38,203 nucleotides of DNA. It comes from a virus. Every line of letters begins with the position of its first letter. The first letter of the stretch is position 1. The notes beneath the pieces were generated by a model that worked only from the letters and a program-made list of their open reading frames with translations, was not told the DNA's origin and searched no databases. The position numbers and the translations under genes are program-made. The stretch lies in the IMG/VR virus record IMGVR_UViG_3300045242_000106, positions 1-38,203 of that record, one strand, 5' to 3'. Shown in pieces: positions 19,731 through 35,818 of the stretch.

Positions 19731-21454
19731 AGTACCCTGTTGAGTGACTGCTTGAGATCGATGGTGTCTGCCAGGAATTTGACCTGGTAGTCCTTCATGT
19801 AGTCAGAGAAGATCACACGCACTGCCTCAGTATCTGCTGCTTTGCTGAGTCTGGTGTTCATCTCCTGGACCACGTTCTCTGGTAGCACTTCAGATTTGAA
19901 TTCACGAAGAGACTTGTTCGCCTTCTTGCGAGCGATGGCGTATTTGCGGAAGGTCCGCAGCTCAGTGACTAGCTTGATATGGATGTCATCTGCAGCGGCT
20001 GATTTGGTAGCATCACCTGAAGCATCTTCTGCAGGTGGATCTTCCTTCGTAGCGTCCGCTGCAGGCGTTGCAGCGTTCTGTGCGGCAAGAGCATCAGCTT
20101 GAGCTTGCTTTGCGTCTGCAGCAGCCTGTGCTGTAGCGTTGCGTGACTCTTCATCAATGAATGTCGGAGTACCGATGACATATGGCTTGTCCACGCCGAT
20201 CGGCTCTTTGCCCTGTGCCTGGCGTACTTCATCGACAGTCGTTTGACCAGAGCGGAGCAAGATCTCATTCTTCTCTGCTTCAGCACGTTCGTCAATCTGG
20301 TCCAGACCAGTATATTTGAACTTCAGATTCTCGAAGCCGAGATCTGTTTGAATAACGTCTGTGAAGATCTCCTCGAAGAATGATGCCAGCGGCACGAGTC
20401 CACTATTGAGACCGATATTCTGCTGGACCTCTCCAGTCGATTTGTTCACCTTGTCTGTGAAGCCGAGCTCATTCGGCGGGATCTCGAAGAGCATACACGT
20501 TTTGTGCATCAGCCACTCCTGGAGCTCTTTGTACTTCATGTCTTCAGGCTTGAGAGCTGGAGTGTATCCAGTAGCACCCTTGCCAGATGGCACGAATTTG
20601 AGCTTGCTCGTGGCACGAGTGTCACCTGCGAGAGCTGCATCCCACAATGTCTGGAATTCCTTGATCTGATCTGGAGTCCAGTCATCAGGTACACCGAAGA
20701 AGCCCTCTGGAATGTTGCCTTCAGTGAGCATGTGGAGATTGTACATGTCGCTCTTGAGTGCTGCAGATACACCGAGGACCAGTGATTCAAGCGGGCTCAA
20801 GCCATATGGAGTGTATGTGCGAGAGTTCATCATTTCGTAGTACATCTCATCTGCAGTGAATGAAGCGACTTCCTTGCCACGAATGATCTGTCGGTATGCT
20901 GTTTCAGGAGGCATCGGAGTGCCACCATTCTCATCGACATTCAGGACGATTGTTGCTGCATCCACAGGCTCGAGGCTGTAGACACCGCCTCCCATGTTTG
21001 GACGCTTGTATATTGCCAGAGCATCGAGGACCAGAAGATCATCCACCATCGTGTCCACAAGCTCTCGGAATCGTACCCGATAGCCACCGATGCTTTTGAA
21101 TTCCTTCTTCAGAGGACGGACTACATCCTTGTAGTCGGTGTCATCATCATCTTCTGCAGCAACAATATCCCACTCGAGCATATTGAGCTGCCGCTTCCTT
21201 CGATTGATCGCCGCACGAGCTACGTCATACTGCACAGAGAATCTGCGAAGTGTAGCGAAGTCAATGCCCGATCCAGGCTTCTGACGAGTTTGGCTCTGAT
21301 TGACGAATGGCATGGTGTCACGCATGACAGCACCCATTCCAGTGCCTGCATCCTTGTTCAAGTCACCACCTGCAGTCATCTTCAGGTAGTCCGCAAGAGG
21401 TCTCAGCACTACATTCGTGTAGATCGATTTCCCCGCATCTTTGAATATTCCCAT
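19727..21454 (-). CDS. Portal protein
   Basis: 575 residues. Recognised by order and motifs: the N-terminal clip or wing region (YDVARAAINRRKRQLNMLEW), YTPYGLSPLESLV, MLTEGNIPEGFFGVPDD, KTCMLFEIPPNELGFTD and a C-terminal extension from ~440 that is A/D/P-rich (ATPAADATKEDPPAEDASGD) followed by a basic helical tail. The family forms the dodecamer at the packaging vertex. ATG 21454 is preceded by AGAGGGATAT. It sits directly after the terminase and before the minor head protein. Confidence 0.92.
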   Translation of the reverse strand: MGIFKDAGKSIYTNVVLRPLADYLKMTAGGDLNKDAGTGMGAVMRDTMPFVNQSQTRQKPGSGIDFATLRRFSVQYDVARAAINRRKRQLNMLEWDIVAAEDDDDTDYKDVVRPLKKEFKSIGGYRVRFRELVDTMVDDLLVLDALAIYKRPNMGGGVYSLEPVDAATIVLNVDENGGTPMPPETAYRQIIRGKEVASFTADEMYYEMMNSRTYTPYGLSPLESLVLGVSAALKSDMYNLHMLTEGNIPEGFFGVPDDWTPDQIKEFQTLWDAALAGDTRATSKLKFVPSGKGATGYTPALKPEDMKYKELQEWLMHKTCMLFEIPPNELGFTDKVNKSTGEVQQNIGLNSGLVPLASFFEEIFTDVIQTDLGFENLKFKYTGLDQIDERAEAEKNEILLRSGQTTVDEVRQAQGKEPIGVDKPYVIGTPTFIDEESRNATAQAAADAKQAQADALAAQNAATPAADATKEDPPAEDASGDATKSAAADDIHIKLVTELRTFRKYAIARKKANKSLREFKSEVLPENVVQEMNTRLSKAADTEAVRVIFSDYMKDYQVKFLADTIDLKQSLNRVL

Positions 21455-21462
21455 ATATCCCT

Positions 21463-23211
21463 CTATGCTCCGTTATTCGCTGATGCTATAGCTGCGGCTT
21501 TTGCGGTTGCTTCGGCTTTGGCTCTCTCATCGGCTTCATTTTGATAGTGCTGGCGAATGCCACTACTTATATTATAGCTGTCATAGGCGTAGTTCATAAG
21601 AGCGGTTGCATCTGGATGATCATCGTGTGCTTCGGCAGAATCAGGATGAGCCACGACCATGAGATCACCGATGTACCGCTTCTCAAGATCAATGAATTCA
21701 TCCTCGAATTCTTCAGCCGATGCTGCAGTGAATTGCTCCTCTGATAGTTGTGTGCCTGGAGCGATCGCCTTCACAGGGTATTCCAGCACGTCCTGCCAGT
21801 AGTAGCAGAAATTCCCATTGATCATCTTCTGGTAGAGAGCTTTGTATATGATGTCCTTGCTCATGCGTGAGAATTTGAGCCGATAGACCTTATATGGTGT
21901 ATGCCTCTCGAATTTGTCTGGCATGAAGTCACCCTGTCCAGTGGAGTCAATCGAGCCCGCAGCAATTTTGAACCACTTCAGCTCCTCCACGAGCGTCTCG
22001 AATTGATCCTCATAATTTGTGCCACGCATGCCGCCGACTGAGCGGACGATCGTCAGCTTGCCATTGATCATGCGACCGATCTTCAGGATCGTCTGGTCCG
22101 AGCTCTTCGCTGTGTCGATCCCGAAGTAGTGATCTTGCTCCAGCCATGCCCGATATTGCTCATATACCTCTGTCGGAATATTGTGCGACATAGCATATTC
22201 ATCGCATTGTGGCAGTGACCTTCGTCCTGCTTTGTACCATTCACGATATTCTCGGAAGACTGGATCTGCAGCAGGGTTTTCGAAGACCTTCTTCACACGA
22301 CCACGCAATAGCTGAGCCGAATCAATGAACATACCGCCCGATAGTTGCCAGACATTGAAATATGGCTTCTGGATCTCAGGACTCATCAAGCCATGACGCT
22401 CGATCTTCTGCTTCACGTTCTGCTCATAGACCAGGTGACGTGCATCGCCATCCATTTCGAACATTCGGCGGCGGTCCGCTGCGATCTCAGGAGCTGTCAT
22501 CACATAGGCTCTGCCCTTCTGGATGTCCTTGTAGAATACGCACTTCTTATCGCCTGCAGTGCCGACCTTCACCACAACGGCGTTCGTGGCAGTACCCATC
22601 GGCAGAATGTCTTCATCGACAATCTCGTCATTTATGTCTTGTGCTTCTTCGATAATGATCACATGCAGCGTCTTTGATTCTGGCTTGCTGGCTGGAGTCA
22701 CAGGGAATATGTAGCATGAAGATCCATTGCCGAGTGTGATCGTTTTGGCATTGCTCTCTTCTTTGGCTTGCTGATTCGCCTCATGGTCCACTATGATCAG
22801 ATCCTTGCGAGACTTCTGCAGGGCATTCTTGAGACGCTTGAAGTCGGTATTCGCCTGCTCCCGCTGTGGTGCGAAGATCCCGATCTCGATCGGCATGCCG
22901 AAGAGACGTGTCACGAAGAGCATGATCGACTCCACAATATGCACGATCGATGTGGTCTTGCCGCTCTGACGTGTATATTCGAAGTTCAGGACCGTTGCAT
23001 CAAGCTGAGCAATATCCTCTTCAGTGACTTCCATGCGTGTCAGGACCAGCAAATTCTGCACAAGCGGAATCATGATCATTCGCCAGATTCGCCACTGGTA
23101 GCGGTAGAATCTACGCTTGTGATACTTCCACAGATGTGCCGCTGTCAGCCTCTGCAGTCTCAGCACTATCTGCTCGACTGATAAGCCCGCTGTCTTCTTC
23201 TGGTGCGTCAT
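21463..23211 (-). CDS. terL: Terminase large subunit
   Basis: 582 residues. Packaging ATPase-nuclease: Walker A TRQSGKTT (residues 80-87), Walker B VIIIEEA (184-190), then nuclease Asp366 in HYFGIDTAKSSD and a second acidic site in AGSIDSTGQGD (about 430). N-terminal RRFYRYQWRIW fits the usual upstream segment of TerL, supporting the long start ATG 23211, which has GGAG 9 bases upstream and overlaps the small-subunit gene by 101 bases. A later ATG at 23079 would cut that segment. Acts at the procapsid portal. Confidence 0.92.
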   Translation of the reverse strand: MTHQKKTAGLSVEQIVLRLQRLTAAHLWKYHKRRFYRYQWRIWRMIMIPLVQNLLVLTRMEVTEEDIAQLDATVLNFEYTRQSGKTTSIVHIVESIMLFVTRLFGMPIEIGIFAPQREQANTDFKRLKNALQKSRKDLIIVDHEANQQAKEESNAKTITLGNGSSCYIFPVTPASKPESKTLHVIIIEEAQDINDEIVDEDILPMGTATNAVVVKVGTAGDKKCVFYKDIQKGRAYVMTAPEIAADRRRMFEMDGDARHLVYEQNVKQKIERHGLMSPEIQKPYFNVWQLSGGMFIDSAQLLRGRVKKVFENPAADPVFREYREWYKAGRRSLPQCDEYAMSHNIPTEVYEQYRAWLEQDHYFGIDTAKSSDQTILKIGRMINGKLTIVRSVGGMRGTNYEDQFETLVEELKWFKIAAGSIDSTGQGDFMPDKFERHTPYKVYRLKFSRMSKDIIYKALYQKMINGNFCYYWQDVLEYPVKAIAPGTQLSEEQFTAASAEEFEDEFIDLEKRYIGDLMVVAHPDSAEAHDDHPDATALMNYAYDSYNISSGIRQHYQNEADERAKAEATAKAAAIASANNGA

Positions 23212-23734: not shown

Positions 23735-23929
23735 TTATCCCTTCTTTAGATCTGGACGCTTGTCTCCAGTCAGCTCCTCGATCCCCACGATTGAATAATT
23801 CGTGCGTTGCTTGATGACTCTGGCTCGCTCGATAGCGGCATCCTCATCAGGTGCTTGCACGACAATATGAATGATATTGAGCTTGCCGACATCCGATTCA
23901 TCGAATGCCTCCACTGTGTATTTATACAT
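23735..23929 (-). CDS. Small hypothetical protein (64 aa)
   Basis: Short alpha/beta protein: YKYTVEAFDESD, IIHIVVQAPDEDAAIERARV, YSIVGIEELTGD. ATG 23929 is chosen for GGAG 6 bases upstream; it overlaps the methyltransferase end by 8 bases. It looks like the small beta-alpha proteins found beside phage DNA-processing genes, but no family is recognised. It precedes terS. Confidence 0.65.
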   Translation of the reverse strand: MYKYTVEAFDESDVGKLNIIHIVVQAPDEDAAIERARVIKQRTNYSIVGIEELTGDKRPDLKKG

Positions 23930-25118
23930 TTGATACTCCTTCCTTCTTATAGCATACCTTGAATAAACTCGATGCAACGGCTTCGACCGTATTGACCGTC
24001 ACTGCATTCCCCGCCATTTTGTAGCGTTGTGAGTCACTGATCTCGACACTATCATCTGAATATCGTGTCCAGTCATCGGGGAAGCCCTGCAGACGCTCAC
24101 ATTCTCTCGGAGTGAGCCTTCTGATCCTCCTGCCATCGAATATGCCCTGACGATCAGATGACGTGACAGTATAGGCAGGATCTCCGTTTTCTTTGAATCG
24201 TCTTCCGTTCTGGCTTTTATTGATTCGATCAGGAGTCTGCACAGGTATTGCTACAAATTGCTGCTGATCGGTGTCGAGTGTTCCGACACGCTCTTCTTTG
24301 ACTATGCCTCGTCTGGTGGACGAATTCACGCTCTTGCGATCAATGCTCATCACTGCAGTACGCTGTCCATGATTGTCGAGCCCCTTGAAGTAGTTCGCAT
24401 CGACAGTGTGAGCAATCTCCTCGCTCTGTGGCACGACCTCTCCATGTAGCTTGTGGACCGCATAGAGCCCTGTTTTTGCACCGAGACCGCCACCGAGAGC
24501 TTTGAGTGTCCTACCGACACCATTCGTGTCATATATCCTCAGAGCATCAGAGGTGTTTATCGTAAGTTCTTGAGCAATTTTTGCGTTTGTTCCGAAGATA
24601 GGAAATACTTCTCCTCCACATGATCCTCCAGAATGTCCGACAATATAGACACGCTCTCTGCTTTGGGGTACTCCGAAGTCTTTGCTATTGCACACCTGCC
24701 ATTCCACGAGATACCCCATGTCGGCAAGAATTTCAAGAATTGTCTGGAAAGTTTTGCCCTCGTCATGAGTAAGTAGACCCTTGACGTTTTCGAGAATAAA
24801 ATGTCGGGGTCTTTTGTCGGCGAGTATCCTTGCAACGTCAAAAAAGAGAGTGCCTCTTGCTTCTTCGAATCCCCTTCGTTTGCCTGCAACGCTGAATGCC
24901 TGACAAGGGAAGCCACCGACAAGGAGCTCGAAGTCAGGGAGTTCTGTGGTATCAATTCTTGTTGCGTCTCCATAGTTCTTCCCTCCGATTTGTTTATTGA
25001 ATACTGATATTGCATACTTGTCAATCTCTGAATATCCGACACTCTCAGCATCTGGTATTGCTTTTTTGATGCCGAGCTCGAAGCCGCCGATCCCTGTGAA
25101 CATTGAGAAGTATTTCAT
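23922..25118 (-). CDS. DNA (cytosine-5) methyltransferase
   Basis: 398 residues with all main motifs of the Dcm family in order: FTGIGGFELG (motif I, residues 7-16), GGFPCQAFS (IV, catalytic Cys72), ILENVKGL (VI), PQSRERVYIVG (VIII), then the target-recognition region, and RLTPRECERLQGFPDDW and YKMAGNAVTVN (IX-X). It transfers a methyl group from S-adenosylmethionine to cytosine in a specific site. No restriction enzyme is adjacent, so it is probably an orphan methylase that protects phage DNA from host restriction or marks it. Target not readable from sequence. Confidence 0.93.
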   Translation of the reverse strand: MKYFSMFTGIGGFELGIKKAIPDAESVGYSEIDKYAISVFNKQIGGKNYGDATRIDTTELPDFELLVGGFPCQAFSVAGKRRGFEEARGTLFFDVARILADKRPRHFILENVKGLLTHDEGKTFQTILEILADMGYLVEWQVCNSKDFGVPQSRERVYIVGHSGGSCGGEVFPIFGTNAKIAQELTINTSDALRIYDTNGVGRTLKALGGGLGAKTGLYAVHKLHGEVVPQSEEIAHTVDANYFKGLDNHGQRTAVMSIDRKSVNSSTRRGIVKEERVGTLDTDQQQFVAIPVQTPDRINKSQNGRRFKENGDPAYTVTSSDRQGIFDGRRIRRLTPRECERLQGFPDDWTRYSDDSVEISDSQRYKMAGNAVTVNTVEAVASSLFKVCYKKEGVSNV

Positions 25119-25480
25119 TTGAGCCTCACGATGATATTCTTGTCCGCCAGTCCGAATGCCTGCTGATCGTCTATAGCGATGTCCACATGGAATGTACGGT
25201 CCTTCGCCATATACTTCCAGACATACTCATCCAGCGACAATCTACGCCCCCACATCTCAGCATACTCCTTGCCGCCACCGCTCCAGACTACTATGCGGAC
25301 ATTCTTCGAGAGCTTTGAGAGAGTTTGAAGCATCCAGATATATTGCATGCAGGGCACATCATCCTCTGAGACGAGCGTACCATCCACATCGAAGGCGATG
25401 ATCAGCTTCTGCATTCTGTCGGCTATTACGCCGTCCAGACCGAGCTCTGGTGTGGCTTTGCGTTCTGTAGTGGCATTCAT
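25115..25480 (-). CDS. HAD-superfamily phosphatase-like protein (121 aa)
   Basis: Contains the HAD signature IIAFDVDGTLV (Asp31, Asp33), IVVWSGGG (motif II) and a late acidic pair in HVDIAIDDQQ. This is a small, cap-less HAD enzyme; substrates of such proteins in phage glycan or nucleotide clusters are usually sugar phosphates or nucleic-acid ends. Its ATG overlaps the upstream TGA by one base, and its end overlaps the methyltransferase start (ATGA). Confidence 0.8.
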   Translation of the reverse strand: MNATTERKATPELGLDGVIADRMQKLIIAFDVDGTLVSEDDVPCMQYIWMLQTLSKLSKNVRIVVWSGGGKEYAEMWGRRLSLDEYVWKYMAKDRTFHVDIAIDDQQAFGLADKNIIVRLK

Positions 25481-25785
25481 CAGAATGTGCTCCCTGTGCT
25501 TCCATCCCTGAGAGCCATTCGTGCTTCGAGTATCAGGCGGAGCTTGCCATCAGCGAGCTTGAAGCGAAGCCTCCTGACGCTGCTGGAGATACTAGGCTGC
25601 GAGACATCGAACACAGAGCCGATCTCGGCATGTGTCCATCCAGCACACAGCAGATCGACTATGAGCTGCTCACGGAGCGTCAGCAAGTCATACGTCTCCT
25701 CTGCTACAAGGAAGCCGACCGCCTGCTCTAATGGTGTGATAGTTTTGAACATATCATTCTGGTCCACGTCTTCGAGTTTTTGCAT
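25480..25785 (-). CDS. HTH regulator, sigma-70 region 4-like (101 aa)
   Basis: Residues ~35-80 read LTLREQLIVDLLCAGWTHAE IGSVFDVSQPSISSSVRRLR (split here into two parts), a helix-turn-helix of sigma region 4/LuxR type: LTLREQ then AEIGSVFDVSQPSISSSV. There is no region 2 and no DNA-binding partner domain. Placed just ahead of the methyltransferase and head genes, it could be a late-gene activator. The start ATG 25785 lies within the upstream zinc-ribbon gene. Confidence 0.75.
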   Translation of the reverse strand: MQKLEDVDQNDMFKTITPLEQAVGFLVAEETYDLLTLREQLIVDLLCAGWTHAEIGSVFDVSQPSISSSVRRLRFKLADGKLRLILEARMALRDGSTGSTF

Positions 25786-25981
25786 CTGTGTTTTCCCGCC
25801 TCAGAACACCGACTTGTCCGTCAGCCTCCCTGATTTTGATTGATTTGTCTCGGATCTGCCTTGCCTCTACATCACGCCCGCACCGATAACACGGCACGAT
25901 GATCCGATCCTTCTCGACATTCTCGAGGAAGATCTCCTGATCGAAGCCACACCATTCGTGCTTATAGCGGAAGACAGCCAT
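25754..25981 (-). CDS. Small zinc-ribbon protein (75 aa)
   Basis: Contains PCYRCGRDVEARQ with a CxxC pair and one more cysteine in the N-terminus (WCGFDQEIF), and a very basic C-terminus (RRENTDAKTRRRGPE). A CxxC-type knuckle with a basic tail suggests nucleic-acid binding. It overlaps the HTH gene by 32 bases, so the two may work together. No family recognised. Confidence 0.65.
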   Translation of the reverse strand: MAVFRYKHEWCGFDQEIFLENVEKDRIIVPCYRCGRDVEARQIRDKSIKIREADGQVGVLRRENTDAKTRRRGPE

Positions 25982-25982
25982 G

Positions 25983-27389
25983 CTACTTCTTGCCCTTCTT
26001 CTCGAGCTTGCGTCTCTGAGCCCGATTCATGAATGACGAGCCAGCCTGTTGCTTTGCCAGGATGTCAGCATTCTCTTTTGCTGCTTCGATTGCAGCTTGC
26101 TCCACCAGTCCGATCCAGAGCTGGCAGATGTTGGACCAGTCAAGCTCACGCACCCACTTGTACGCTCCCTCGACATCAGGAAGGTTCTTGCCGTCCATGA
26201 TCTCTTCGATGCGATCTGCAGCAGCCTTCACGTCCATGAGAGGACGGATGCGATCATTGTCCATTTCTTTGACGATCCACATGCTCGGATCTGCTCCACT
26301 CGGAATCAGTGCGGCACGATTGTCTGCACCCATTTCATTGAAGCTAGTGTTGCCAGGGATCAGCAGCGGTGTCTTTGTTGCCATTGCTTCTGTGGCACTC
26401 AAGCCCCAGCCTTCACCGAGAGTTGTGGAGATCACGAGGTCCGCTGAGTTGTAGATCCGATTCAAGTCATCAAGTGGCATGCCCTGATTCGCATTGAAGA
26501 TCTTCGGTGATGGCAGGAAGTACTCATACTCTTTGCCGAGCCCGAGCTGATTTGCCATCGTGAAGATGTTGCCGCCTGAGTCCTCGTACTGCATGTGCAG
26601 GTACATCATCGGCTTGCGTCCACGATCCCATAGCTCCTTGAGTATCATCAGGCTTCTGGCTACGTCCTTGCGTGGCTGATTGCGGTTCACATTGACGATC
26701 AGGAAGCGATCCTTCGCACGATCATTGAAGTATGACTTGCGGAAGTTCTTCACGTCCTGGCGATCCTCTATGTGGAAGAAGGTATCAGGGTTGTTGCCGT
26801 GATAGATCACTCGGAGGCGTTCATCGAGCTCTGGCATGTGCTTGAGTACTTCTTCTCGTCCGAACTGTGTATATACGACAGGGAAGTCAGCCTCTGATAC
26901 TGCCTGCACCCATTCTTTTTTGAGCTGAGCATCGACAGGGAAGTACCAGATAGTCTTGAAGGTCTTGTGACCGTTCTCCACGAGAGCAGCCTGTGTCTTC
27001 TTCACTTCTGGCATGATCGGCTCGAGCACGAAGCTGTCCTGGATCATGTACACCACATCATATTTGCCAGTACCCATGAGATCGAGCAATCGCTGCCGAC
27101 CATAGACATCGCCATACGGACCAGCGTTCATCATGCCGCCAGGCATTGCAGGGAAGACTTCTCCCACCCACTTGTCACGATCATACGGATCGCCTGAGTA
27201 GTTTATGCCGAGGACATCGATCTCATATTTGCCAGTGGCGTGTAGCTGCCGAGCAATATTCCCCAGGACCATGCCGAAGCCAGTCGCACAGCAATAGTCT
27301 CCATAGAGCAGCAGACGTGTCTTCTGTTCTGGCTCTCCCACGATCCGCTTCTGTGCGTCATCAATGACGGCTTCAGCTATAGCATCCAT
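25983..27389 (-). CDS. GT4-type glycosyltransferase (468 aa)
   Basis: Two-domain GT-B enzyme. N-terminal domain: LLLYGDYCCATGFGMVLGNI (the acceptor-side glycine-rich turn), YDVVYMIQD; C-terminal domain: RFLIVNVNRNQPRKDVARSL and EGWGLSATEAMATKTPLLIP, the E-x7-E donor-binding motif of GT4 family retaining enzymes. The C-terminus is basic (RRKLEKKGKK). Transfers a sugar from a nucleotide donor to an acceptor glycan or protein. ATG 27389 is chosen for GGAG 8 bases upstream, giving a 13-base overlap with the dehydratase gene; a frame to 27458 is also open. Confidence 0.85.
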   Translation of the reverse strand: MDAIAEAVIDDAQKRIVGEPEQKTRLLLYGDYCCATGFGMVLGNIARQLHATGKYEIDVLGINYSGDPYDRDKWVGEVFPAMPGGMMNAGPYGDVYGRQRLLDLMGTGKYDVVYMIQDSFVLEPIMPEVKKTQAALVENGHKTFKTIWYFPVDAQLKKEWVQAVSEADFPVVYTQFGREEVLKHMPELDERLRVIYHGNNPDTFFHIEDRQDVKNFRKSYFNDRAKDRFLIVNVNRNQPRKDVARSLMILKELWDRGRKPMMYLHMQYEDSGGNIFTMANQLGLGKEYEYFLPSPKIFNANQGMPLDDLNRIYNSADLVISTTLGEGWGLSATEAMATKTPLLIPGNTSFNEMGADNRAALIPSGADPSMWIVKEMDNDRIRPLMDVKAAADRIEEIMDGKNLPDVEGAYKWVRELDWSNICQLWIGLVEQAAIEAAKENADILAKQQAGSSFMNRAQRRKLEKKGKK

Positions 27390-28435
27390 TGCGGGTTCTC
27401 CAGTGTCCATTCGACTGTCTTTGCGAGTGATTCCTTGAAGCTGATCGGTGGCTGCCATCCGAGTGCGAAGAGCTTTGAGCCGTCCAGAGCATAGCGGCGA
27501 TCATGTCCAGGACGTGTGCTGTGGAAGTCTTCCAGGTGGTAGATCAATGGCTTGCCGACAAGCTCTGCGATTTCTTGTGCGAGCTCGAGGTTGTTCTTCT
27601 CGGTGTCTCCGACCACGTTGTAGCGATCAGGGAAGACGATTTCATTGTTGTCCACATACTTTGTTGGAGTGCCACGATTGATCAGGAAGAGCATTGCATC
27701 TGCGTGATTGCGAGCGTGGAGGTAGAAGCGAGAGCCGACATATTCCTTGTTGCCGTGAATGGTGACATCCCTGCCTTCGTGGATACCCTTGATCAGCATC
27801 GGCACGAACTTCTCTGGATCTTGCATCTCTCCGAAGTTGTTCATGGTGTTTGTGATGATCAGCGGCAAGCCGAAGGTCCGCCAGTATGATATAGCGATAG
27901 CTTCCTGAGATGCCTTGCTTGCTGAGTATGGATTCGATGGCAGGATCACATCCCATTCAGGGTGATCGAGCTGCGGTGCTGCACCATAGACTTCATCAGT
28001 CGAGATCTGCACGAAGACAGAGCCCTCTGGTGCTGTGGTGTTGCCGTCTCGGAGCTTCCAGATCGTGCGAGCGTACTCCAGGACGTTCAGTGTCAGAGCG
28101 ACATTGTTCTCGATGAATGGCACTGGATCATCGATACTGCGGTCCACATGGCTCTCTGAAGCCATATTGACGATATGATCGATATGTCCGATGCGGTGGA
28201 TCATCTGCTCGCTGAATGGAGCATTGAGATCGTGAGTGACTACTGAGACACGTTCACGCCAGTCAGGGTGTGCTTCCAGCATCTCTGCGATGCGGTCCGT
28301 CTTGCCCTTGTGTCTGAATGAATCGACACAGACCAGATGCCAGTCAGTATTGTGCATAATGTGTGCCAGTGTGTGTGCTCCGATGAAGCCGCCTGCCCCT
28401 GTCAATAATGCTCGTTTGTGTGTATTAGATTCCAT
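27377..28435 (-). CDS. dTDP-glucose 4,6-dehydratase-like (RmlB family)
   Basis: 352-residue extended SDR enzyme. TGAGGFIG (12-19) binds NAD; MASESHVDRSI (91-101); STDEVYG (145-151); SNPYSASK with Tyr170 and Lys174; NNFGEMQDPEKFVP; and TRPGHDRRYALD near the C-terminus. These are RmlB hallmarks, and conversion of a nucleotide-glucose to 4-keto-6-deoxy sugar is the first step toward deoxy- and amino-deoxysugars. Its likely partner is the DegT aminotransferase (32779-33894). The nucleotide used (dTDP or other) is not certain. Overlaps its upstream and downstream neighbours by 11 and 13 bases. Confidence 0.9.
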   Translation of the reverse strand: MESNTHKRALLTGAGGFIGAHTLAHIMHNTDWHLVCVDSFRHKGKTDRIAEMLEAHPDWRERVSVVTHDLNAPFSEQMIHRIGHIDHIVNMASESHVDRSIDDPVPFIENNVALTLNVLEYARTIWKLRDGNTTAPEGSVFVQISTDEVYGAAPQLDHPEWDVILPSNPYSASKASQEAIAISYWRTFGLPLIITNTMNNFGEMQDPEKFVPMLIKGIHEGRDVTIHGNKEYVGSRFYLHARNHADAMLFLINRGTPTKYVDNNEIVFPDRYNVVGDTEKNNLELAQEIAELVGKPLIYHLEDFHSTRPGHDRRYALDGSKLFALGWQPPISFKESLAKTVEWTLENPQWML

Positions 28436-28694
28436 AGTGATTTCTGAATTTCTCCAGCTCCTCTTCTTTTAGTTGATCGACAGCCTCCGAGAGACGCTCT
28501 TCCACATCTTCCATGTAGTCATTCGCTTCCTTCTCGATAGCATCCCACTTTGCAGCCTTATTTTTTGGAAGGCAGGTATTGATCTTGCTGGCAGTGCGAG
28601 CCCAGTTTTGCGATCTTTGATAGTCATCATAGAGAGCAATCGTCTCAGCGAGCGTGTACTCTTTTATCTTCATCAGCATCGGTACAGCATTCAT
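28425..28694 (-). CDS. Hypothetical helical protein (89 aa)
   Basis: Highly charged, helix-rich protein (SQNWARTASKINTCLPKNKA, YMEDVEERLSEAVDQLKEEE). No domain recognised. The ATG 28694 has GGAGG upstream; it overlaps the downstream dehydratase gene by 11 bases. It lies within the glycan block, with no visible link to it. Confidence 0.65.
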   Translation of the reverse strand: MNAVPMLMKIKEYTLAETIALYDDYQRSQNWARTASKINTCLPKNKAAKWDAIEKEANDYMEDVEERLSEAVDQLKEEELEKFRNHYGI

Positions 28695-28879
28695 GATTTT
28701 GCCTCCTTATTTTCAAGACCCAGTTTTGCCAGTAGTTTTGCATAGTGTTTGTTGCACACATACACAGTCTCTTCCCATGTTCTGTCAGAGTTTGCCAGAT
28801 ATTTCCTTCCAGTGTCGATCACACCGAGCTTGCGATCTGCAACTCTCTTGCAACGCTTGACTGAACAATATGGCATCAT
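28691..28879 (-). CDS. Small zinc-binding protein (62 aa)
   Basis: Cysteine and histidine pairs CSVKRC near the N-terminus and CNKHY later suggest a small zinc-stabilised domain, separated by a basic helix-rich stretch. Starts with ATGATG at the end of the upstream glycosyltransferase gene. Function unknown; overlaps the next gene by 4 bases (ATGA). Confidence 0.6.
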   Translation of the reverse strand: MMPYCSVKRCKRVADRKLGVIDTGRKYLANSDRTWEETVYVCNKHYAKLLAKLGLENKEAKS

Positions 28880-29610
28880 GACTTCTTCTCCAGCGGACCG
28901 ACTACTACACCGTCATCTCGTGTCCAGGTATCAGGACTGATTGATGGATCATTGAATGGTGTCTGGTAGATCTCTGATTCAGGGTATGGAATGCCACCCC
29001 ATTTGCGGACATAGTATGCTGCAGAGTCTGCACTGTTTGGATTCTCCATCATTGAGGTTGCAACACCTCCGAAGTGGACCATCGGTGCAAGGTTCGTGCA
29101 GATCTCACGGTAGCCGAGGAGCTTGCTGCGGCGGTGTGAGTCGTTGTCTTCGTACCAGGCAGGGATGAAGTTCTCATCGAAGAAGCCGATCTTCTCGAAG
29201 TAGTCACGAGCGATCAGGAAGCATGAGAAGTTCGGGTGATCACTGTGGCTGGCTGGAGTGCCTTCAGGAAGCTGATATGATGCGATGTCATACGGATTCG
29301 ATAGCTCCAGCTTGATGTTGTTCGGTGTGACCATTACAACACCCTGCTCATTGAGTTCTTTGTGGACCTCGACCATTGCATCGATCGTCACTGAGCTGAA
29401 GAGGATGTCATCATTGCAGACAAGTGCGTAGTCACAGCCGTCATTGAAGGCAGCCATCGCTGATTCATTCCAGGCTCGAGCCAGAGGACGGTTGTATCGC
29501 CACTGATCAATAATATAGAGACGATAGTCATGCTTCGTCTGGATGCTGTAGAGAGTCTCTGACAGCCCCTTGAAGTTATTCAATACTGCGAAGCAGATGC
29601 CGATCTTCAC
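28876..29610 (-). CDS. GT2-type glycosyltransferase (244 aa)
   Basis: GT-A fold: KIGICFAVLNNFKGLSETLY at the N-terminus, YRLYIIDQW, and YALVCNDDILFS containing the metal-binding DxD-like NDD; a late segment YEDNDSHRRSKLLGYREICTN resembles the acceptor loop. Small inverting-type transferase. In the operon directly upstream are an FkbM methyltransferase and two membrane proteins; it adds a sugar to a growing glycan, acceptor unknown. Confidence 0.8.
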   Translation of the reverse strand: MKIGICFAVLNNFKGLSETLYSIQTKHDYRLYIIDQWRYNRPLARAWNESAMAAFNDGCDYALVCNDDILFSSVTIDAMVEVHKELNEQGVVMVTPNNIKLELSNPYDIASYQLPEGTPASHSDHPNFSCFLIARDYFEKIGFFDENFIPAWYEDNDSHRRSKLLGYREICTNLAPMVHFGGVATSMMENPNSADSAAYYVRKWGGIPYPESEIYQTPFNDPSISPDTWTRDDGVVVGPLEKKS

Positions 29611-29921
29611 TTGCTTGTCTCCCCTTCAGTTTTGAGCTCTTTGATGAGATGGTCCACGAGGGCACTGCGATCGGTGAATTCACGGATCTTGCTCTTCGCA
29701 CGTCCAGCAATGAACACGAACCACAGAATGATGATCGTGATCCCCATGTACCAGTGACCGCCCCAGTACATAAAATTGAGCGTGGTGATCAGGATCAAGA
29801 TCCCGAATGTGAAGATGTCAGCTACGATCGACTGAGCTGCACTCTCTCGCACATAGTAGATCTTTGGCTTCGGTTGTTGAAATGTATATGAAGCCGTTGA
29901 TGTTTTTGGTTCTTCTCCCAT
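29607..29921 (-). CDS. Small membrane protein (104 aa)
   Basis: Two transmembrane segments (ADIFTFGILILITTLNFMYW and MGITIIILWFVFIAG, about residues 36-56 and 61-76) with a basic cytosolic loop and C-terminus (RAKSKIREFTDRSALVDHLI). ATG 29921 is chosen since GGGAGG lies 8 bases upstream. Sandwiched between an FkbM methyltransferase and a glycosyltransferase, it may help anchor glycan assembly at the membrane. Unrecognised. Confidence 0.65.
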   Translation of the reverse strand: MGEEPKTSTASYTFQQPKPKIYYVRESAAQSIVADIFTFGILILITTLNFMYWGGHWYMGITIIILWFVFIAGRAKSKIREFTDRSALVDHLIKELKTEGETSK

Positions 29922-29923
29922 GA

Positions 29924-30667
29924 CTAGCACCTCCCTTTGTAGATTTCGTCACTTGTTGGTTTAATATCAGATCGGACAAAAAAGCAATCATTGTGCTCAT
30001 AGATCGGACTATCCAGCGTGAAGCCTTGAGTCTTGAGCCATGCAGCTACTTCAGCACCTGGAGTCTCACCTTTGTATACAGGAGTCACTGAGAGCTCGAT
30101 GCAGAGGTATTTGAATTGCTTCAGCCACTTCCCCATCCCGAGTAGAATCTCCATCTCATTGCCCTGTGTGTCGAGTTGCAGCGTGTCGTATTGAGCGAGA
30201 TCGATGAGCCGCTTGTTGCCACGACTGTCGATATAATGCTTGTTGTTGAACTGCTTCGCCCATGTGTCGAAGCGGACCAGCTCGACTTCTTCGTGTGCCA
30301 CGATCGCCGCCTGCCCTTGATTCCAGTTCTTTGTGACTTCAGGATGATCCCACACGCCATCGAATAATGATGAGCCTTTGCCATCGCCTGCAGTCACCTG
30401 CAGATCGCCAGTGCTGTTTGTATCGTGGAGACCGAGCTTGAAGACATGTGCATTCAGACCATACTTCTCGTCCAGGATCTCGAATGCGGATGTCAGTGGC
30501 TCGAAGCCGATCAAATGCTCGACACCCATGCGGATGAAGTTCTCGATCTCTTCGCCATCGTTTGCTCCGCCCTGGACCACACCATTCAGATCGAAGCCCT
30601 GAACAGTAAAATGACTCAATTTGTTGCGTTCTTCAGCTTCGTAGAAGCCTGGTAGTTCTCGCTTCAT
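29924..30667 (-). CDS. FkbM-family methyltransferase
   Basis: 247 residues. VVQGGANDGEEIENF and HLIGFEPLTSAFEIL match the SAM-binding part of FkbM-type O-methyltransferases (VDVGANxG..., EP...); the later strand FDTWAKQF, DTLQLDTQGNEMEIL and the cysteine-rich C-terminus also fit. Such enzymes methylate sugar or lipid hydroxyls. Its neighbours are membrane proteins and glycosyltransferases, so it probably caps or decorates the phage-specified glycan. Confidence 0.85.
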   Translation of the reverse strand: MKRELPGFYEAEERNKLSHFTVQGFDLNGVVQGGANDGEEIENFIRMGVEHLIGFEPLTSAFEILDEKYGLNAHVFKLGLHDTNSTGDLQVTAGDGKGSSLFDGVWDHPEVTKNWNQGQAAIVAHEEVELVRFDTWAKQFNNKHYIDSRGNKRLIDLAQYDTLQLDTQGNEMEILLGMGKWLKQFKYLCIELSVTPVYKGETPGAEVAAWLKTQGFTLDSPIYEHNDCFFVRSDIKPTSDEIYKGRC

Positions 30668-30852
30668 GACTTCTTCCCCATATCATTACCGATCGTCAAG
30701 AATATTGATCCTATAGATCCGAGCATCAATGCTGAGATCCATTGCTGGAGCGTTGCATCCTTACCGAACAGTGTGAAGTATAGGAATGCAATGCCCGATG
30801 TGAGAATCAGCATTCCACCGACTACAAAATAAAATACTTGTGTGCTTTTCAT
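30664..30852 (-). CDS. Small membrane protein (62 aa)
   Basis: Two hydrophobic helices (VFYFVVGGMLILTSGIAFLY and WISALMLGSIGSIFLTIG) and a short basic end. ATG 30852 is chosen since it overlaps the upstream stop as ATGA; longer frames would need to run through that gene. Function unknown; lies within the glycan block. Confidence 0.65.
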   Translation of the reverse strand: MKSTQVFYFVVGGMLILTSGIAFLYFTLFGKDATLQQWISALMLGSIGSIFLTIGNDMGKKS

Positions 30853-31142
30853 TCGACTATTCCATCCTTTTGATTCCACCAGCGGAAGCTGATCGGCTTG
30901 AGCTCGGGTATCGGAGATCCGAGCTTCACCTGTTTGAACGTGCTTGATATACATACGAGTGCGAACACCTGGCGATTCTGATCAAAATATACATGGTGGA
31001 ATACCACGTCTTCAGGCAGGTGTCCTTCATTGATCACGAAGCGGGAGCTCGTCATGAAGTGGAGCAATGCTTCAGGGTGCAGCCAGATCAATGCCTGGCG
31101 GCTCATATCGATGTTACCGTCTGCTTTTTTGCCGAACATCAC
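30849..31142 (-). CDS. Hypothetical protein (97 aa)
   Basis: Unrecognised mixed alpha/beta protein. Sequence: MMFGKKADGNIDMSRQALIW start, then HVYFDQNRQVFALVCISSTF and a C-terminal RWWNQKDGIVE. Begins with ATGATG at the end of the acetyltransferase gene, so it is translated with it. May be a small partner of the acetyltransferase. Confidence 0.6.
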   Translation of the reverse strand: MMFGKKADGNIDMSRQALIWLHPEALLHFMTSSRFVINEGHLPEDVVFHHVYFDQNRQVFALVCISSTFKQVKLGSPIPELKPISFRWWNQKDGIVE

Positions 31143-31627
31143 GCTGCCTCCGCTTCCTGGTGGACCTGTGAGTGGACCATCACCAGAAGCTCTGCAGTAT
31201 CATTGACTGCCACATAGCCGAGCTTCCTGTACAGATTGATTGCGACCTCATTGCCCCGCAGCACATCGAGCCAGGCTTCTTCCGATCGGAGATCTTCGTG
31301 GATGAATTGTGTCATCTCCTGGAATAAGAAGTGCCCTGCTCCCTTGCCTCGTGCATCCTCTGTCAGACCGCCTGACACCCACCATTTGCCATCACGTTTG
31401 CTGATGAGCCCATAGCCGATTGGATCTTGCTCATCGGTGCGTAGTATGTACCCGAAGAGATCGCCACGCTCACGGGCAGGCAGGTATGTGTCTTCGAACC
31501 ACTTGAGCTGATCGGATGGCATGATCTCGGCAATGTTGTGCGTCATGAAGCCACGCACTTCATTGCGAACTTCCATCATCACATACGCTTCATTCTCGGT
31601 TTCCATTTCATGCAAGATGAGTGACAT
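31139..31627 (-). CDS. GNAT-family N-acetyltransferase
   Basis: 162 residues. DPIGYGLISKRDGKWWVSGG (strands 4-5), LTEDARGKGAGHFLFQEM holding the acetyl-CoA motif (RxxGxG, here RGKGAG), WLDVLRGNEVAINLYRKLGY (motif B). Transfers an acetyl group to an amine. Placed between a glycosyltransferase and the 97-aa gene, it likely N-acetylates the amino sugar made by the DegT enzyme. ATG 31627 has GGAGGT 5 bases upstream and lies within the end of the upstream gene; the frame is open to 31762 without a start signal. Confidence 0.85.
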   Translation of the reverse strand: MSLILHEMETENEAYVMMEVRNEVRGFMTHNIAEIMPSDQLKWFEDTYLPARERGDLFGYILRTDEQDPIGYGLISKRDGKWWVSGGLTEDARGKGAGHFLFQEMTQFIHEDLRSEEAWLDVLRGNEVAINLYRKLGYVAVNDTAELLVMVHSQVHQEAEAA

Positions 31628-32528
31628 CATAACCTCCGTCTCTAATAATTGCGGGTATCCATCGCTTCTGCCACTTGTATTCCTGCAGGTAGCGATCTTC
31701 AGCGACAAGGTACATCTGCGTCTCGGGGTTGCCGCATGGTTTGATTCGATAATCAGGATCAAGAGACATGTTCGGTGCTTCCTCGCCTGGCTTCAGCCGC
31801 CATTCGATTCCACGATCGTCCAGGAATTTGATGCAGTCATTGCGGTATCGCTCATTGCCAGTGGTAGTCATGCCACCGATGTGATCATTGTCTGAGCCCA
31901 TTGTGATGACGTGGTAGCCAGCTTCAATGGTCCTGATCGGCATAATGCGATCGTAGAAGTGAGCCAGGGTGATGTCGGACCACTTCTCGTGCTCTCTGAC
32001 GAGCTGTGGAATGACTTCCCTGCGGAATAGCATGAAGAGAGAGTCGAGCACAATGGCGGGCTCTATGCCATCGATCCTGCGTCCTGCAGACGGATCTTGC
32101 CCCTTCCATATCTGCTCACCCACCTTGACATCTCTCCCCATGAAGTTGCAGACGGTGTATGATCCACGACCACCCATTGCATCGACTTCCTTGCTGCCGC
32201 AGAGTCCGATCAGACCGAGCTGTGGATCTTGCACGAAGGCATCCTGCATTCGTTTGTCGAAGCCCTTCTCGTAGAGCATCAGGTCATTGTGCATAATGCC
32301 GATATATTCTTCGTCTGGATATGCATTGTAGAGCTCCAGGAGTGGCTGATAGAAGCCGATATTCTCGTCACTGTAGATGGTGTCGATCTGATAATTGTCA
32401 TACTTCTTCTCTGAAGCATTGTCGAAGATCACAGGCTTCGTAGAATCGAAGACACGATTCTTGAGTATGTGATCAATAGCCACTGCTGTGAGCTCGTGAC
32501 CTTCCACCACTGGCAAGCCGAGGATCAT
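31608..32528 (-). CDS. GT2-like glycosyltransferase (306 aa)
   Basis: N-terminal strand MILGLPVVEGHELTAVAIDH, then VIFDNASEKKYDNYQIDTIY and NIGFYQPLLELYNAY, EEYIGIMHNDLML: the NxG...N..., MHND pattern matches a GT-A fold with DxD-like HND. Second half has GLIGLCGSKEVDAMGGRGSY and EPAIVLDSLFMLFRRE, like GT2-type enzymes acting on surface sugars. The 20-base end overlap carries the acetyltransferase ribosome-binding site. Confidence 0.8.
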   Translation of the reverse strand: MILGLPVVEGHELTAVAIDHILKNRVFDSTKPVIFDNASEKKYDNYQIDTIYSDENIGFYQPLLELYNAYPDEEYIGIMHNDLMLYEKGFDKRMQDAFVQDPQLGLIGLCGSKEVDAMGGRGSYTVCNFMGRDVKVGEQIWKGQDPSAGRRIDGIEPAIVLDSLFMLFRREVIPQLVREHEKWSDITLAHFYDRIMPIRTIEAGYHVITMGSDNDHIGGMTTTGNERYRNDCIKFLDDRGIEWRLKPGEEAPNMSLDPDYRIKPCGNPETQMYLVAEDRYLQEYKWQKRWIPAIIRDGGYDVTHLA

Positions 32529-32782
32529 TTCCAGACCGCTTTCTTGAAGTGCATCCAGCGAGTCAGCGGTTGCGGGTATGTGCGGTGATGCTTCTTCCAG
32601 TGCTCCACTGCCTTCACACGCTCCAGGCTGATCATAATTGCGAGTGATGTGATCTTCGCTTCACGCTTTCCCTTCTTTTTGTCGATGGCATACTCCAGGT
32701 ATCGACCAGCTCGCTCTTTCAAGCGGACCAGCTCTTCCTGTGACTCAGGGAATTGATCTTCGTTCATCTGGTGATGTGTCAT
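32525..32782 (-). CDS. Hypothetical basic protein (85 aa)
   Basis: Highly charged helix-rich protein (EELVRLKERAGRYLEYAIDK, RVKAVEHWKKHHRTY) with a basic C-terminus. ATG 32782 is chosen since it overlaps the DegT stop as ATGA. No family recognised; may be an accessory in the glycan block. Confidence 0.6.
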   Translation of the reverse strand: MTHHQMNEDQFPESQEELVRLKERAGRYLEYAIDKKKGKREAKITSLAIMISLERVKAVEHWKKHHRTYPQPLTRWMHFKKAVWK

Positions 32783-33894
32783 GATCGAGCCTTCTGAGCA
32801 AATTCGTTGCACGATTCGATGATTTGATTGAGGTCCATTATTGAGAGCCCCCAGTGGACAGGAATGCAGATCATGCGATCACTGAAGTAGTCCACGCCAT
32901 CGAGACCATTATTCTTCACGTCTTTGAACACAGTATATTTGTCATTGCGTTTGTGGACCTGAGACACCTGGATGCCTCGCTCCGTCATGAAGTCCTTGAA
33001 TTGATCCCGCTCGACTTTGGATGGCAACAATAATGTATACAGCCAGTATGCTGAGACACGATCACCGCCCTGATTTTGCCGAACAAAATATTTATCCAGT
33101 GCGTCATCGTACACTGCAGCATGCTTGCGGTGATTGCGAAGCACCTGCTCGATGTAGTCCATCTGGACAATGCCGATTGCCGCATTCAAGTCATTCATGT
33201 GGAATTTGTATCCCCATTCCACGATGTCTTGATCAATGCGGGAATCGAGACTGTCTGTGTCTCGCTTGATCCCGAACCAGCGGAGCGTCTTTGCCCGCTC
33301 TGCATCGGCAGGATCTTTGCACGTTAGTATGCCGCCGTCACCAGTAGTGATGTGCTTGATTGCCTGAAGACTGAAGCAGGTGAAGTCCGCTATTTGACCG
33401 ACCTTCTTGCCCTTGTATTCAGCACCGAATGAATGTGCTGCGTCCTCGACTACCTTGAGATCATGAGCCCTCGCAACGCCCATGATCTCATCGAGATCCG
33501 CTGGCATTCCACCCCAGTCCACGAACAATATTGCTTTCGTTTTTGGTGTTATCAGCTTTTCGACTGACTCTGCCGATATGTTTCCACTTATCGGATCAGC
33601 GTCTGCGAATAGCAACGTGCCACCGAGAGATAATACTGGAAGATTTGTGGCTGTGCAAGTCATAGCGGTGGAGATCACTTCGTCTCCAGGACCGACTCCA
33701 GCGAGGCGTAGAGCCATCGTCAGAGCGGATGTGCCGCTATTGAGTGTCACCACGTTCGGAGTGCCGAGGAATTCAGCGATCCGCCCTTCAAATTCTTCTA
33801 CCTTTGGACCTTGCGTGATGTAGCCACTGTGAAGCGTACCGATCACAGCGTCATCTACTGCCGCAGGCATGTGTACTTTGAAGAGCGGGATCAT
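32779..33894 (-). CDS. DegT/DnrJ/EryC1/StrS-family aminotransferase
   Basis: 371 residues, PLP-dependent sugar aminotransferase. TLNSGTSALTMALRLAGVGP (PLP phosphate contact), VVEDAAHSFGAEYKG (Asp151), and FSLQAIKHITTGDGG with Schiff-base Lys180: motif order of the DegT/ArnB family. It converts a 4-keto or 3-keto nucleotide sugar, such as the product of the RmlB-like enzyme, to an amino sugar. Followed by glycosyltransferase and acetyltransferase genes, which makes an N-acetylated amino-deoxysugar the most coherent product. The gene starts 2 bases after the GroEL stop. Confidence 0.92.
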   Translation of the reverse strand: MIPLFKVHMPAAVDDAVIGTLHSGYITQGPKVEEFEGRIAEFLGTPNVVTLNSGTSALTMALRLAGVGPGDEVISTAMTCTATNLPVLSLGGTLLFADADPISGNISAESVEKLITPKTKAILFVDWGGMPADLDEIMGVARAHDLKVVEDAAHSFGAEYKGKKVGQIADFTCFSLQAIKHITTGDGGILTCKDPADAERAKTLRWFGIKRDTDSLDSRIDQDIVEWGYKFHMNDLNAAIGIVQMDYIEQVLRNHRKHAAVYDDALDKYFVRQNQGGDRVSAYWLYTLLLPSKVERDQFKDFMTERGIQVSQVHKRNDKYTVFKDVKNNGLDGVDYFSDRMICIPVHWGLSIMDLNQIIESCNEFAQKARS

Positions 33895-33896: not shown

Positions 33897-35555
33897 CTAG
33901 AGTTTCTCCGAATCGTCTTCAGTGTTGGCAATTACGCCTTCAGTGATGACGAATAGTGCAGCTTCAGATGCCGCATTCTTGACTGCAGACACTGTGACCA
34001 GGCTCGGATCAATGATGCCAGCATCGAATGCGTTCACCACTTCACCAGTATAGAAGTCGATCGTCAGCTTTTTGTCCTCAGACACACGCTTCAGATCAGC
34101 CTTGTCGAGCTCCAGACCACTATTGAGAGCCATCTGCTTGATCGGTTCGAAGCAAGCCTTCACGACTGCGAGCAGCCCTGAGATCTCTTCATTGCTGAGC
34201 TTCAGATCAGTACGGATGGAATCTTGAGCCTTGACTGCTGCACGATAGAGAGCAGCACCGCCACCAGCGATCACACCGTTCGACATTGCTGCCTTTGATG
34301 CATTGATAGCATCCTCGACTCGGAGCTTCCGCTCTTCACGCTCTGTCTCAGCCACACCGCCGACTCGGATGACACCGACTCCGCTGCGTAGTTTGGCGAT
34401 TCGCTCCTGCAGCAAGTTCTTCTCATATGCTTTGACCAGGCTCGGGATCTGAGCTTCTAGCTCTGCGATCCGCTCGTCTGCATCGCCTGCTCCACCGAGA
34501 ATAGTCGTGCGGTCCTTGCTGGCGATCACTCGCTCAGCGTGTCCGAAGATATTGAAGTCGGTTGCCAGGTGTGTGCTCGGAGTGGCACTGGTCCTGTATG
34601 AATCATTCATTGATGCGGGCAGCTTGTAGCCTTCGTCACGAGCGTAGAAGATGCCGCCAGTAGCAGCAGCCATATCTCGCAGCACAGCCTGTCCTTGCTC
34701 ACCGAGAGCCATCACACGGATCGGGATCATGGTGAATTTGCCCTGTGCTTTGTTCACGGCACAGGCAGCCATTGCTTCGCCAGTCACTGAGTTTGCGATC
34801 AGGACCGCTTGCTTGTAGCCTTCAGTGGCACATGCTTCCATCAGCTTGACGATCTCGACACCGTTTGTGATGTCGTGGTCCGTCACGAAGATCGGCACAT
34901 CTGACACGTCAGCTTCCTGTCTGGCAGGGTTTGTGATAAAGATCGGAAGCTGGATGCCTCCACGCAATTCGATGCCTTCAGCGACTCGTGCGGTGGTCTC
35001 TTCGACTTCAGAGTCTTCTATAGTGACCACACCACCTTCACCGACCTTCTGGACTGTCTCAGCCACGAGCTTGCCGATCACTGGATCGCCACATGAGATC
35101 GTAGCGACATTGATCAGAGCTTCGAGATCTTTGGTCTCGACTATCTCATCCTGCAGTGCAGTGATGACGGCTTCTGCAGCCTTCTCGATGCCCCTGCGGA
35201 GCAGCACTGGATCAGCTCCATTGTTTATTTGCTGAAGCCCATGAGTAGTCATTGCCTGCAGCAAGACGCTGGCTGTGGTAGTACCATCACCAGCCACATC
35301 GTTCGTTTTGTTGGCTGCAGCTTTGACGATCTTCACACCGACTTCCATGTGATCTTCGCCTGCAGGTGCGTGGAGCTCACGAGCAATGGTGACACCATCA
35401 TTCGTATTGAGCGGGTTTGCATAAGGGTTCGTATCGAGCACAATATTTCGTCCTCGTGGACCGAGCGTGGTCTTCACCACATTTGCGACAAGATCGATTC
35501 CTGCTTTGATTTTCTGTCTGGCAGGATCGCCAGTCACGACTACTTTATGGCTCAT
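33897..35555 (-). CDS. groEL: Phage-encoded chaperonin GroEL (552 aa)
   Basis: Full-length group I chaperonin. KTTLGPRGRN (29-37), NDGVTIAREL (52-61), GDGTTTASVL (89-98, ATPase Asp90), apical region with GGIQLPIFITN, and the hinge-ATP region VAETEREERKLRVEDAINAS. The C-terminus EDDSEKL lacks the GGM repeat of the usual bacterial chaperonin. The co-chaperonin gene overlaps its start (ATGA). Family role: ATP-driven folding in a double ring. In this phage it probably helps fold capsid, portal or tail proteins; it may be preferred over or replace host GroEL. SD GGAGGG precedes ATG 35555. Confidence 0.95.
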   Translation of the reverse strand: MSHKVVVTGDPARQKIKAGIDLVANVVKTTLGPRGRNIVLDTNPYANPLNTNDGVTIARELHAPAGEDHMEVGVKIVKAAANKTNDVAGDGTTTASVLLQAMTTHGLQQINNGADPVLLRRGIEKAAEAVITALQDEIVETKDLEALINVATISCGDPVIGKLVAETVQKVGEGGVVTIEDSEVEETTARVAEGIELRGGIQLPIFITNPARQEADVSDVPIFVTDHDITNGVEIVKLMEACATEGYKQAVLIANSVTGEAMAACAVNKAQGKFTMIPIRVMALGEQGQAVLRDMAAATGGIFYARDEGYKLPASMNDSYRTSATPSTHLATDFNIFGHAERVIASKDRTTILGGAGDADERIAELEAQIPSLVKAYEKNLLQERIAKLRSGVGVIRVGGVAETEREERKLRVEDAINASKAAMSNGVIAGGGAALYRAAVKAQDSIRTDLKLSNEEISGLLAVVKACFEPIKQMALNSGLELDKADLKRVSEDKKLTIDFYTGEVVNAFDAGIIDPSLVTVSAVKNAASEAALFVITEGVIANTEDDSEKL

Positions 35556-35818
35556 TTTTTGCCCTCCGTTACTTTTGCTAGAACATCGAATGTCTCGATT
35601 TGCGTCACCATTTCATTCTCAAAAAAGAAGCCAGGGTATGTACCTGGCTTGAGTAGCACGAGCGAGTCGGCTGAGAATGAAGATTCGGCTGGAGCGTGAA
35701 GCACACGATAGACAGCACCACGCTTGTCAGTATCGCCACCAGTGTCAAATTGTGACTCGGCTTTTGCTTCCACTTTTTGGACGAGCATATACTCGCCGCA
35801 CATTTCTATTTGATACAC
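35552..35818 (-). CDS. groES: GroES-like co-chaperonin (88 aa)
   Basis: Short beta-barrel protein with GroES-type order: MLVQKVEAKAESQFDTGGDT with the mobile-loop position, RGAVYRVLHAPAES strand, VLLKPGTYPGFFFENEM, and a final IETFDVLAKV. The mobile-loop stretch lacks the hydrophobic Ile-Val-Leu triplet used by GroES to dock on GroEL, so docking may differ. GTG 35818 is chosen for GGAGGTGCAGA just upstream. Its stop overlaps the groEL start. Inside its coding sequence lies an intrinsic-terminator-like hairpin at 35621-35650. Confidence 0.8.
   Translation of the reverse strand: MYQIEMCGEYMLVQKVEAKAESQFDTGGDTDKRGAVYRVLHAPAESSFSADSLVLLKPGTYPGFFFENEMVTQIETFDVLAKVTEGKK
35621..35650 (-). terminator. 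Intrinsic-terminator-like hairpin inside the GroES gene
   Basis: On the minus strand AAGCCAGG (35650-35643) and CCTGGCTT (35635-35628) form a perfect 8-bp stem with a 7-base loop, followed by CTTTTTT. The layout is a textbook Rho-independent terminator, yet lies within the coding sequence (KPGTYPGFFF). It could make part of the transcripts stop before groEL. If translation covers it, termination is reduced. Confidence 0.65.

Follow-up and report, generated by a model that had tools for sequence, protein, structure and literature searches.

The window considered here, the whole 38,203 nt stretch of IMG/VR record IMGVR_UViG_3300045242_000106, is a phage genome that carries a block of seven sugar enzymes in a run with its packaging and head genes. 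We propose, at a probability of roughly 60%, that this operon glycosylates the phage particle with a 4-acetamido-4,6-dideoxyhexose that is partly phage made. The virion acceptor, the enzymatic steps, the identity of the sugar, and the benefit are what we infer; the donor and acceptor chemistry is predicted from the genes and is best read as a variant of already known phage virion glycosylation. Such glycosylation has so far been demonstrated in few tailed-phage systems. Here, a 38 kb phage would be spending about one fifth of its genome on a glycosylation operon that includes synthesis of a rare amino-sugar donor, in a layout kept over several lineages.

The enzymes of the block

All open reading frames (ORFs) of the window were listed and translated, and enzymes were identified by hidden Markov model (HMM) searches of Pfam, NCBIfam, and phrog with curated cut-offs. 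HMM matches and motifs confirm the enzymes that an initial annotation had named from the letters alone: an RmlB-like dehydratase, a DegT aminotransferase, a GNAT acetyltransferase, three glycosyltransferases (GT4, GT2a, and GT2b), and an FkbM methyltransferase. All are on the minus strand. Together they occupy 17.0% of the genome, and their span, 25983-33894, takes up 20.7%, in agreement with the early estimate of a fifth. Curated Pfam cut-offs were passed by GT4, the RmlB-like protein, FkbM, GNAT, GT2b, and DegT. Loss of active sites, against which the initial annotation had cautioned, is not what we found: the catalytic motifs of the RmlB-like protein (GxxGxxG, TDE, and YxxxK), DegT (Lys180, which binds pyridoxal phosphate, in QAIKHITTGDGG), GT4 (EX7E), and GT2a (NDD and EDND) are intact, and they do not vary among the aligned relatives.

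The RmlB-like protein has dTDP-glucose 4,6-dehydratases as its top PDB matches; in the NCBIfam comparison it scored 243.4 bits, below the specific equivalog cut-off, and on these scores it is RmlB-like and not a certified RmlB. The PDB structures nearest to DegT are 4zwv/4xau and CalS13 (4zas), followed by ArnB and perosamine synthetases, all of which we take to be C4-acting. Among curated sugar aminotransferases, DegT scored highest against the PseC-type TIGR03588 (252.4 bits; cut-off 423.5). GNAT reached 37.9 bits against a PF00583 cut-off of 20.7, and its best curated family was PseH (TIGR03585, 2e-8; 34.7 bits, cut-off 93.1). FkbM, 78-89% identical within the genus, exceeded both of its cut-offs (TIGR01444, 44.8/37.7 bits; PF05050, 43.4/22.7 bits). 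The structure searches suggested by the initial annotation placed the RmlB-like protein and DegT as above and matched an AlphaFold model of GT2a (pLDDT 72) to GT-A glycosyltransferases in the PDB. They were ambiguous for GT2b, where Foldseek, given a model with pLDDT 64, cannot tell glycosyltransferases from nucleotidylyltransferases. We considered GT2b as the missing nucleotidylyltransferase and rejected this: KdsB came top, but at a TM score of ~0.37 and with a poor model, and PF13712 keeps GT2b among the glycosyltransferases.

These families suggest a pathway. The RmlB-like enzyme would convert host dTDP-glucose to dTDP-4-keto-6-deoxyglucose, DegT would aminate this product at C4, and GNAT would acetylate the amine; the resulting donor would be a 4-acetamido-4,6-dideoxyhexose (Qui4NAc- or Fuc4NAc-like). 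GT4, GT2a, and GT2b, all predicted to be soluble, would then build a short glycan on at least one virion protein, and FkbM would O-methylate it. An RmlA-type NTP_transferase (PF00483) had no match in any genome examined, with all controls positive, implying that the host has to supply dTDP-glucose. The FdtA isomerase of the 3-amino sugar route was likewise not found, which makes a C3-amino sugar less likely. Homology, intact active sites, conserved synteny, and the co-occurrence of DegT and GNAT together lend good support to the chain first proposed, from dehydratase, aminotransferase, and N-acetyltransferase to glycosyltransferases and methyltransferase, with its starting dTDP-glucose left to the host. 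The initial annotation had also included a HAD phosphatase; the gene scores below the Pfam cut-offs, has a 33% match in relative G001 only, and is missing from most relatives, and we dropped it from the pathway because it is not conserved.

A shared run with packaging and head genes

The two ends of the window share exactly 127 bp, so that the genome is circularly closed and complete; an equal terminal overlap is found in relatives G005 (37,426 bp) and G022 (39,493 bp). With its RecT-like protein, CHAP endolysin, tail genes, protease, head morphogenesis, portal, and terminase, the window is, on this evidence, a complete 38 kb siphophage genome. The initial annotation had also raised the joining of a host contig by misassembly. 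This is excluded by the terminal overlap, an even GC along the window (0.48-0.53), and synteny in independent contigs: among five genus-level relatives (G001-G005; terminase 69-76% identical), four (G002, G003, G004, and G005) have the block in the same order and G001 spans part of it. By these measures, the phage carries the block as a fixed component.

A series of 26 genes on one strand extends from the GroES-like gene to the capsid gene, with no gap larger than 47 bp and many 4-bp overlaps; a gap of 313 bp lies upstream of the first gene. This run includes the GroES-like/GroEL pair, the glycan genes, terminase, portal, protease, and capsid (Table 1). Its single strand and lack of large gaps indicate that glycan and head genes are probably co-transcribed. 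A promoter and terminator scan, which gave no more sites than shuffled sequence, was uninformative on this point, and tRNA and Rfam searches of the window gave no match. Because the glycan genes share the run with chaperonin, terminase, portal, protease, and capsid, the glycan would be made during virion assembly, where it might provide shielding, stability, or altered adsorption.

Table 1. Features of the window, in order of position
Feature	Position	Strand	Basis or remark
Terminal overlap	1..127		exact match to last 127 bp
Major capsid protein (inferred)	16010..17017	-	position after protease and portal; distal end of run
Portal protein	19727..21454	-	phrog_2662 E=1e-64
Terminase large subunit	21463..23211	-	tblastn to annotated Streptomyces phage terminases
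C5-cytosine DNA methyltransferase, accessory insertion	23922..25118	-	PF00145 2e-83
HAD-like protein	25115..25480	-	below Pfam cut-offs
101-aa HTH protein	25480..25785	-	weak HTH/sigma-region-4 matches; between glycan genes and terminase
GT4 glycosyltransferase (start likely near 27410)	25983..27458	-	PF00534; phrog_2170 E=2e-39
RmlB-like NDP-glucose 4,6-dehydratase	27377..28435	-	PF16363 1e-50
GT2a, GT-A-fold glycosyltransferase	28876..29610	-	phrog_29879 4e-11 (phage galactosyltransferase family); Pfam weak
107-aa two-TM protein, optional, genus-restricted	29607..29930	-	hydropathy
FkbM-family methyltransferase	29924..30667	-	PF05050 5e-11; TIGR01444
GNAT N-acetyltransferase (longest ORF to 31762)	31139..31630	-	PF00583 2.5e-9
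GT2b, nucleotide-diphospho-sugar-transferase-like glycosyltransferase	31608..32528	-	PF13712 above cut-off
DegT-family sugar aminotransferase	32779..33894	-	PF01041 2e-92, 310.8 bits, above cut-off
GroEL chaperonin, head of run	33897..35555	-	NF000592 above cut-off
GroES-like co-chaperonin (possible, weak)	35552..35791	-	position and size

The same placement is seen elsewhere. The comparison covered 50 viral records that encode a GT4 homologue, in which portals were sought with phrog_12. GT4 lies upstream of the portal and co-oriented with it, at 0.9-4.1 kb, in 14 of the 14 records with a portal recognized in this way. Under a naive placement model, the expectation for contigs of at least 30 kb is 3-4% per record; the records are related, and no combined probability is given. 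In G065 and G076, the distance from GT4 to terminase is 8-9 kb. A distinct 62 kb phage, G008 (GC 0.62), has GT4, RmlB, GT2a, DegT, GT2b, and GNAT flanked by terminase/portal/head-like genes on one side and tape-measure-like genes on the other; these structural genes were judged by eye and not by HMM. Two GT4-bearing contigs have one in-frame stop each (TAG and TAA) in their portal frames (G066:C1:8432-9913 and G067:C1:18486-19916), for which sequencing error, a split gene, and recoding are candidate explanations.

Isolated phages TJE1, S-CBS4, phiPsal1, and Zuko also have glycosyltransferase and methyltransferase genes within or beside the head module. In Tetrasphaera phage TJE1 (NC_019930, orf9-orf14), as in the window, terminase and portal are preceded by glycan genes, namely a nucleotide-sugar epimerase, a GT4 homologue (38%), and a methyltransferase. 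A nucleotidyl transferase and a guanylate kinase are, however, annotated there, and DegT and GNAT are not annotated in the stretch compared. Genes 4-8 of Streptomyces phage Zuko share the order RmlB homologue (44%), glycosyltransferase, HTH, terminase, portal; the glycosyltransferase is, however, not recognizably homologous, and DegT, GNAT, and FkbM are not annotated there. Synechococcus phage S-CBS4 and Pontimonas phage phiPsal1 carry group 1/GT4 and GT2 glycosyltransferase and methyltransferase genes among their head genes, whereas nucleotide-sugar biosynthesis is not annotated alongside. The 160 kb Flavobacterium phage immuto groups DegT (38%) with a methyltransferase and several glycosyltransferases in one cluster and, like the window, encodes GroEL; unlike in the window, the cluster is bordered by non-structural genes in the stretch compared.

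The closest functional precedent comes from mycobacteriophages, in which capsid and tail tube are modified by phage enzymes, glycosyltransferases together with an O-methyltransferase (Freeman et al. 2023, as reported in PMC11600133 and PMC12619734). The window phage resembles this Che8-type virion glycosylation (PMC11600133, PMC11256854, PMC12619734) in encoding glycosyltransferases with a methyltransferase. In the Che8 type, glycans are found on capsid and tail proteins; donor-sugar biosynthesis, predicted for the window phage, is not described for it in the accounts cited. In Maravista, according to the same literature, the glycosyltransferase genes are near the genome end, rather than within a packaging and head run with GroEL. 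Gene position and this precedent agree in pointing to a virion acceptor.

Weighing other acceptors

Phage glycosyltransferases are known to target DNA, the host surface, and virions. The initial annotation had left the choice between surface and virion open, and the evidence favors the virion. An operon that alters a host cell-wall polysaccharide, teichoic acid, or glycolipid during infection, preventing superinfection or re-adsorption of progeny, is the strongest competitor, although we consider it unlikely. Phage glycosyltransferases are well known to bring about serotype conversion, and the block contains two small membrane proteins. Superinfection prevention has been proposed for glycosyltransferases of freshwater actinophages (PMC10202952), and nucleotide-sugar genes are commonly interpreted as surface modifying (PMC12911398). 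Against this, no GtrA flippase was detected (PF04138 without a match; controls positive), hydropathy finds no multi-TM (transmembrane) enzyme in the block, and the glycan genes are linked to terminase, portal, and capsid, not to early genes. The interspersed membrane proteins of the initial annotation do exist, but neither is conserved outside the genus, and the 107-aa two-TM protein is missing from G001, G007, G022, and G023. The window, G005, and G022, all complete genomes, gave no match to tyrosine integrase (PF00589), serine integrases not having been searched for, which makes lysogenic conversion less likely. Tyrosine integrases do occur in G023 and G020 (L208:6628-7467 and L213:220-1059), so that one capsid family includes temperate and apparently non-integrating members. 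We prefer a virion acceptor to the host surface because of the run shared with terminase, portal, and capsid, the position of GT4 upstream of portals elsewhere, and the lack of a detected GtrA-type flippase, multi-TM glycosyltransferase, or tyrosine integrase. Since nucleotide-sugar genes here share a run with capsid and packaging genes, such genes in phages should not automatically be labeled host surface modifiers or auxiliary metabolism.

Decoration of phage DNA against nucleases, at which the adjoining C5-cytosine methyltransferase might hint through a modified cytosine, seems very improbable. Phage DNA glycosylation is itself established (Pyle et al. 2024, as reported in PMC12619734), and G007 encodes thymidylate-synthase-family and UDG-family genes. 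However, the thymidylate synthase/hydroxymethylase family (PF00303) is absent from the window and the listed relatives save G007, in a search whose controls worked, and the C5-methyltransferase has no homologue in G001-G005, which retain the glycan block. A search for Tet/JBP (PF12851), run without a positive control, gave no match. The C5-methyltransferase and the HAD gene are likely a recent joint insertion. In G007 (L105:9078-11429), ThyX, thymidylate-synthase-family, UDG-family, and kinase genes lie side by side, which suggests thymine hypermodification of that phage's own DNA.

Only a little more probable is a glycan placed on a host protein or small molecule, apart from virion and envelope, to disarm defense or redirect the host. 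The predicted enzymes are soluble, the sequence does not identify the acceptor, and GNAT enzymes can acetylate many amines, all of which would suit such a target. The block is nevertheless placed and conserved with head genes, and three glycosyltransferases with a methyltransferase point to an oligosaccharide more than to a single sugar.

Several points weigh against virion glycosylation with an acetamido sugar. The acceptor is deduced from gene position, and 36 of the 50 GT4 records have no phrog_12 portal and hence are silent on position. The RmlB-like protein, DegT, and GNAT reach no specific NCBIfam equivalog cut-off, so that their families are secure and their exact substrates are not; GNAT is also similar to RimI-type protein acetyltransferases, and GT2b has a low-confidence fold. 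Finally, the co-occurrence of DegT and GNAT was seen in few genomes, and some of these are close relatives of one another.

Constant and possibly exchangeable genes

Comparison beyond the genus (capsid 51-60% identical) separates genes that stay from genes that vary. In G007 (capsid 54%), the order GroEL-DegT-GT2b-GNAT-GT2a-RmlB-GT4-HTH is kept before a terminase that cannot be aligned to the window's. G022 and G023 (capsid 59-60%) have GroEL-GT2b-FkbM-second methyltransferase-GT2a-GT4-HTH and lack DegT and GNAT; RmlB is present in G022 (69%) and absent from G023. In G026, GT4 adjoins the portal and is accompanied by GT2a, RmlB, GT2b, and several further enzymes, with no DegT. Seven genomes (G000, G002-G005, G007, and G008) have DegT together with GNAT, and three (G022, G023, and G026) have neither. 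Among phages with this capsid protein, no glycan genes are as constant as the three glycosyltransferases; RmlB and FkbM vary. Even within the genus, RmlB of G001 (L092:12799-13809) is 55% identical, compared with 79-83% in the others, while the nearby FkbM is 89% identical; an outlier between well-conserved neighbors is likely to reflect local, in-place replacement.

These patterns are best read as a conserved glycosyltransferase core around which donor-sugar and decoration genes may be exchanged among related phages. A tentative extension, which we hold at less than even odds, is that virions have glycotypes: donor-sugar genes (RmlB, DegT with GNAT, and methyltransferases) would be swapped while a fixed set of core glycosyltransferases stays with the chaperonin and head/packaging genes, as a viral counterpart of cassette exchange in O-antigens. 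If so, the sugar on the particle should differ between genomes with and without DegT and GNAT.

The genes flanking the block also recur. The 101-aa HTH protein is conserved across the family (G001-G005, G007, G022, and G023), and GroEL adjoins the block in G002, G003, G005, G007, G022, and G023; with its possible GroES partner (33897-35791), it is kept beside the glycosyltransferases in G007, G022, and G023. The GroES-like gene has no Pfam match in the window, and Cpn10 was matched only in relative G022 (E=0.026). The capsid gene, 85-97% identical among relatives, was assigned by position and conservation because its sole family match is a weak phrog of unknown function.

Two scans of 84,980 genomes for capsid relatives that might point to a host found none. 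There is no close phage isolate, the best terminase match being ~22% identical. Among isolated phages, GT4 and RmlB find their best matches in actinobacterial phages, and the lysin has a CHAP domain, which is only suggestive of an actinobacterial host. In the closest relative, G006, the protease/scaffold gene (L100:3029-4618) is broken into two ORFs.

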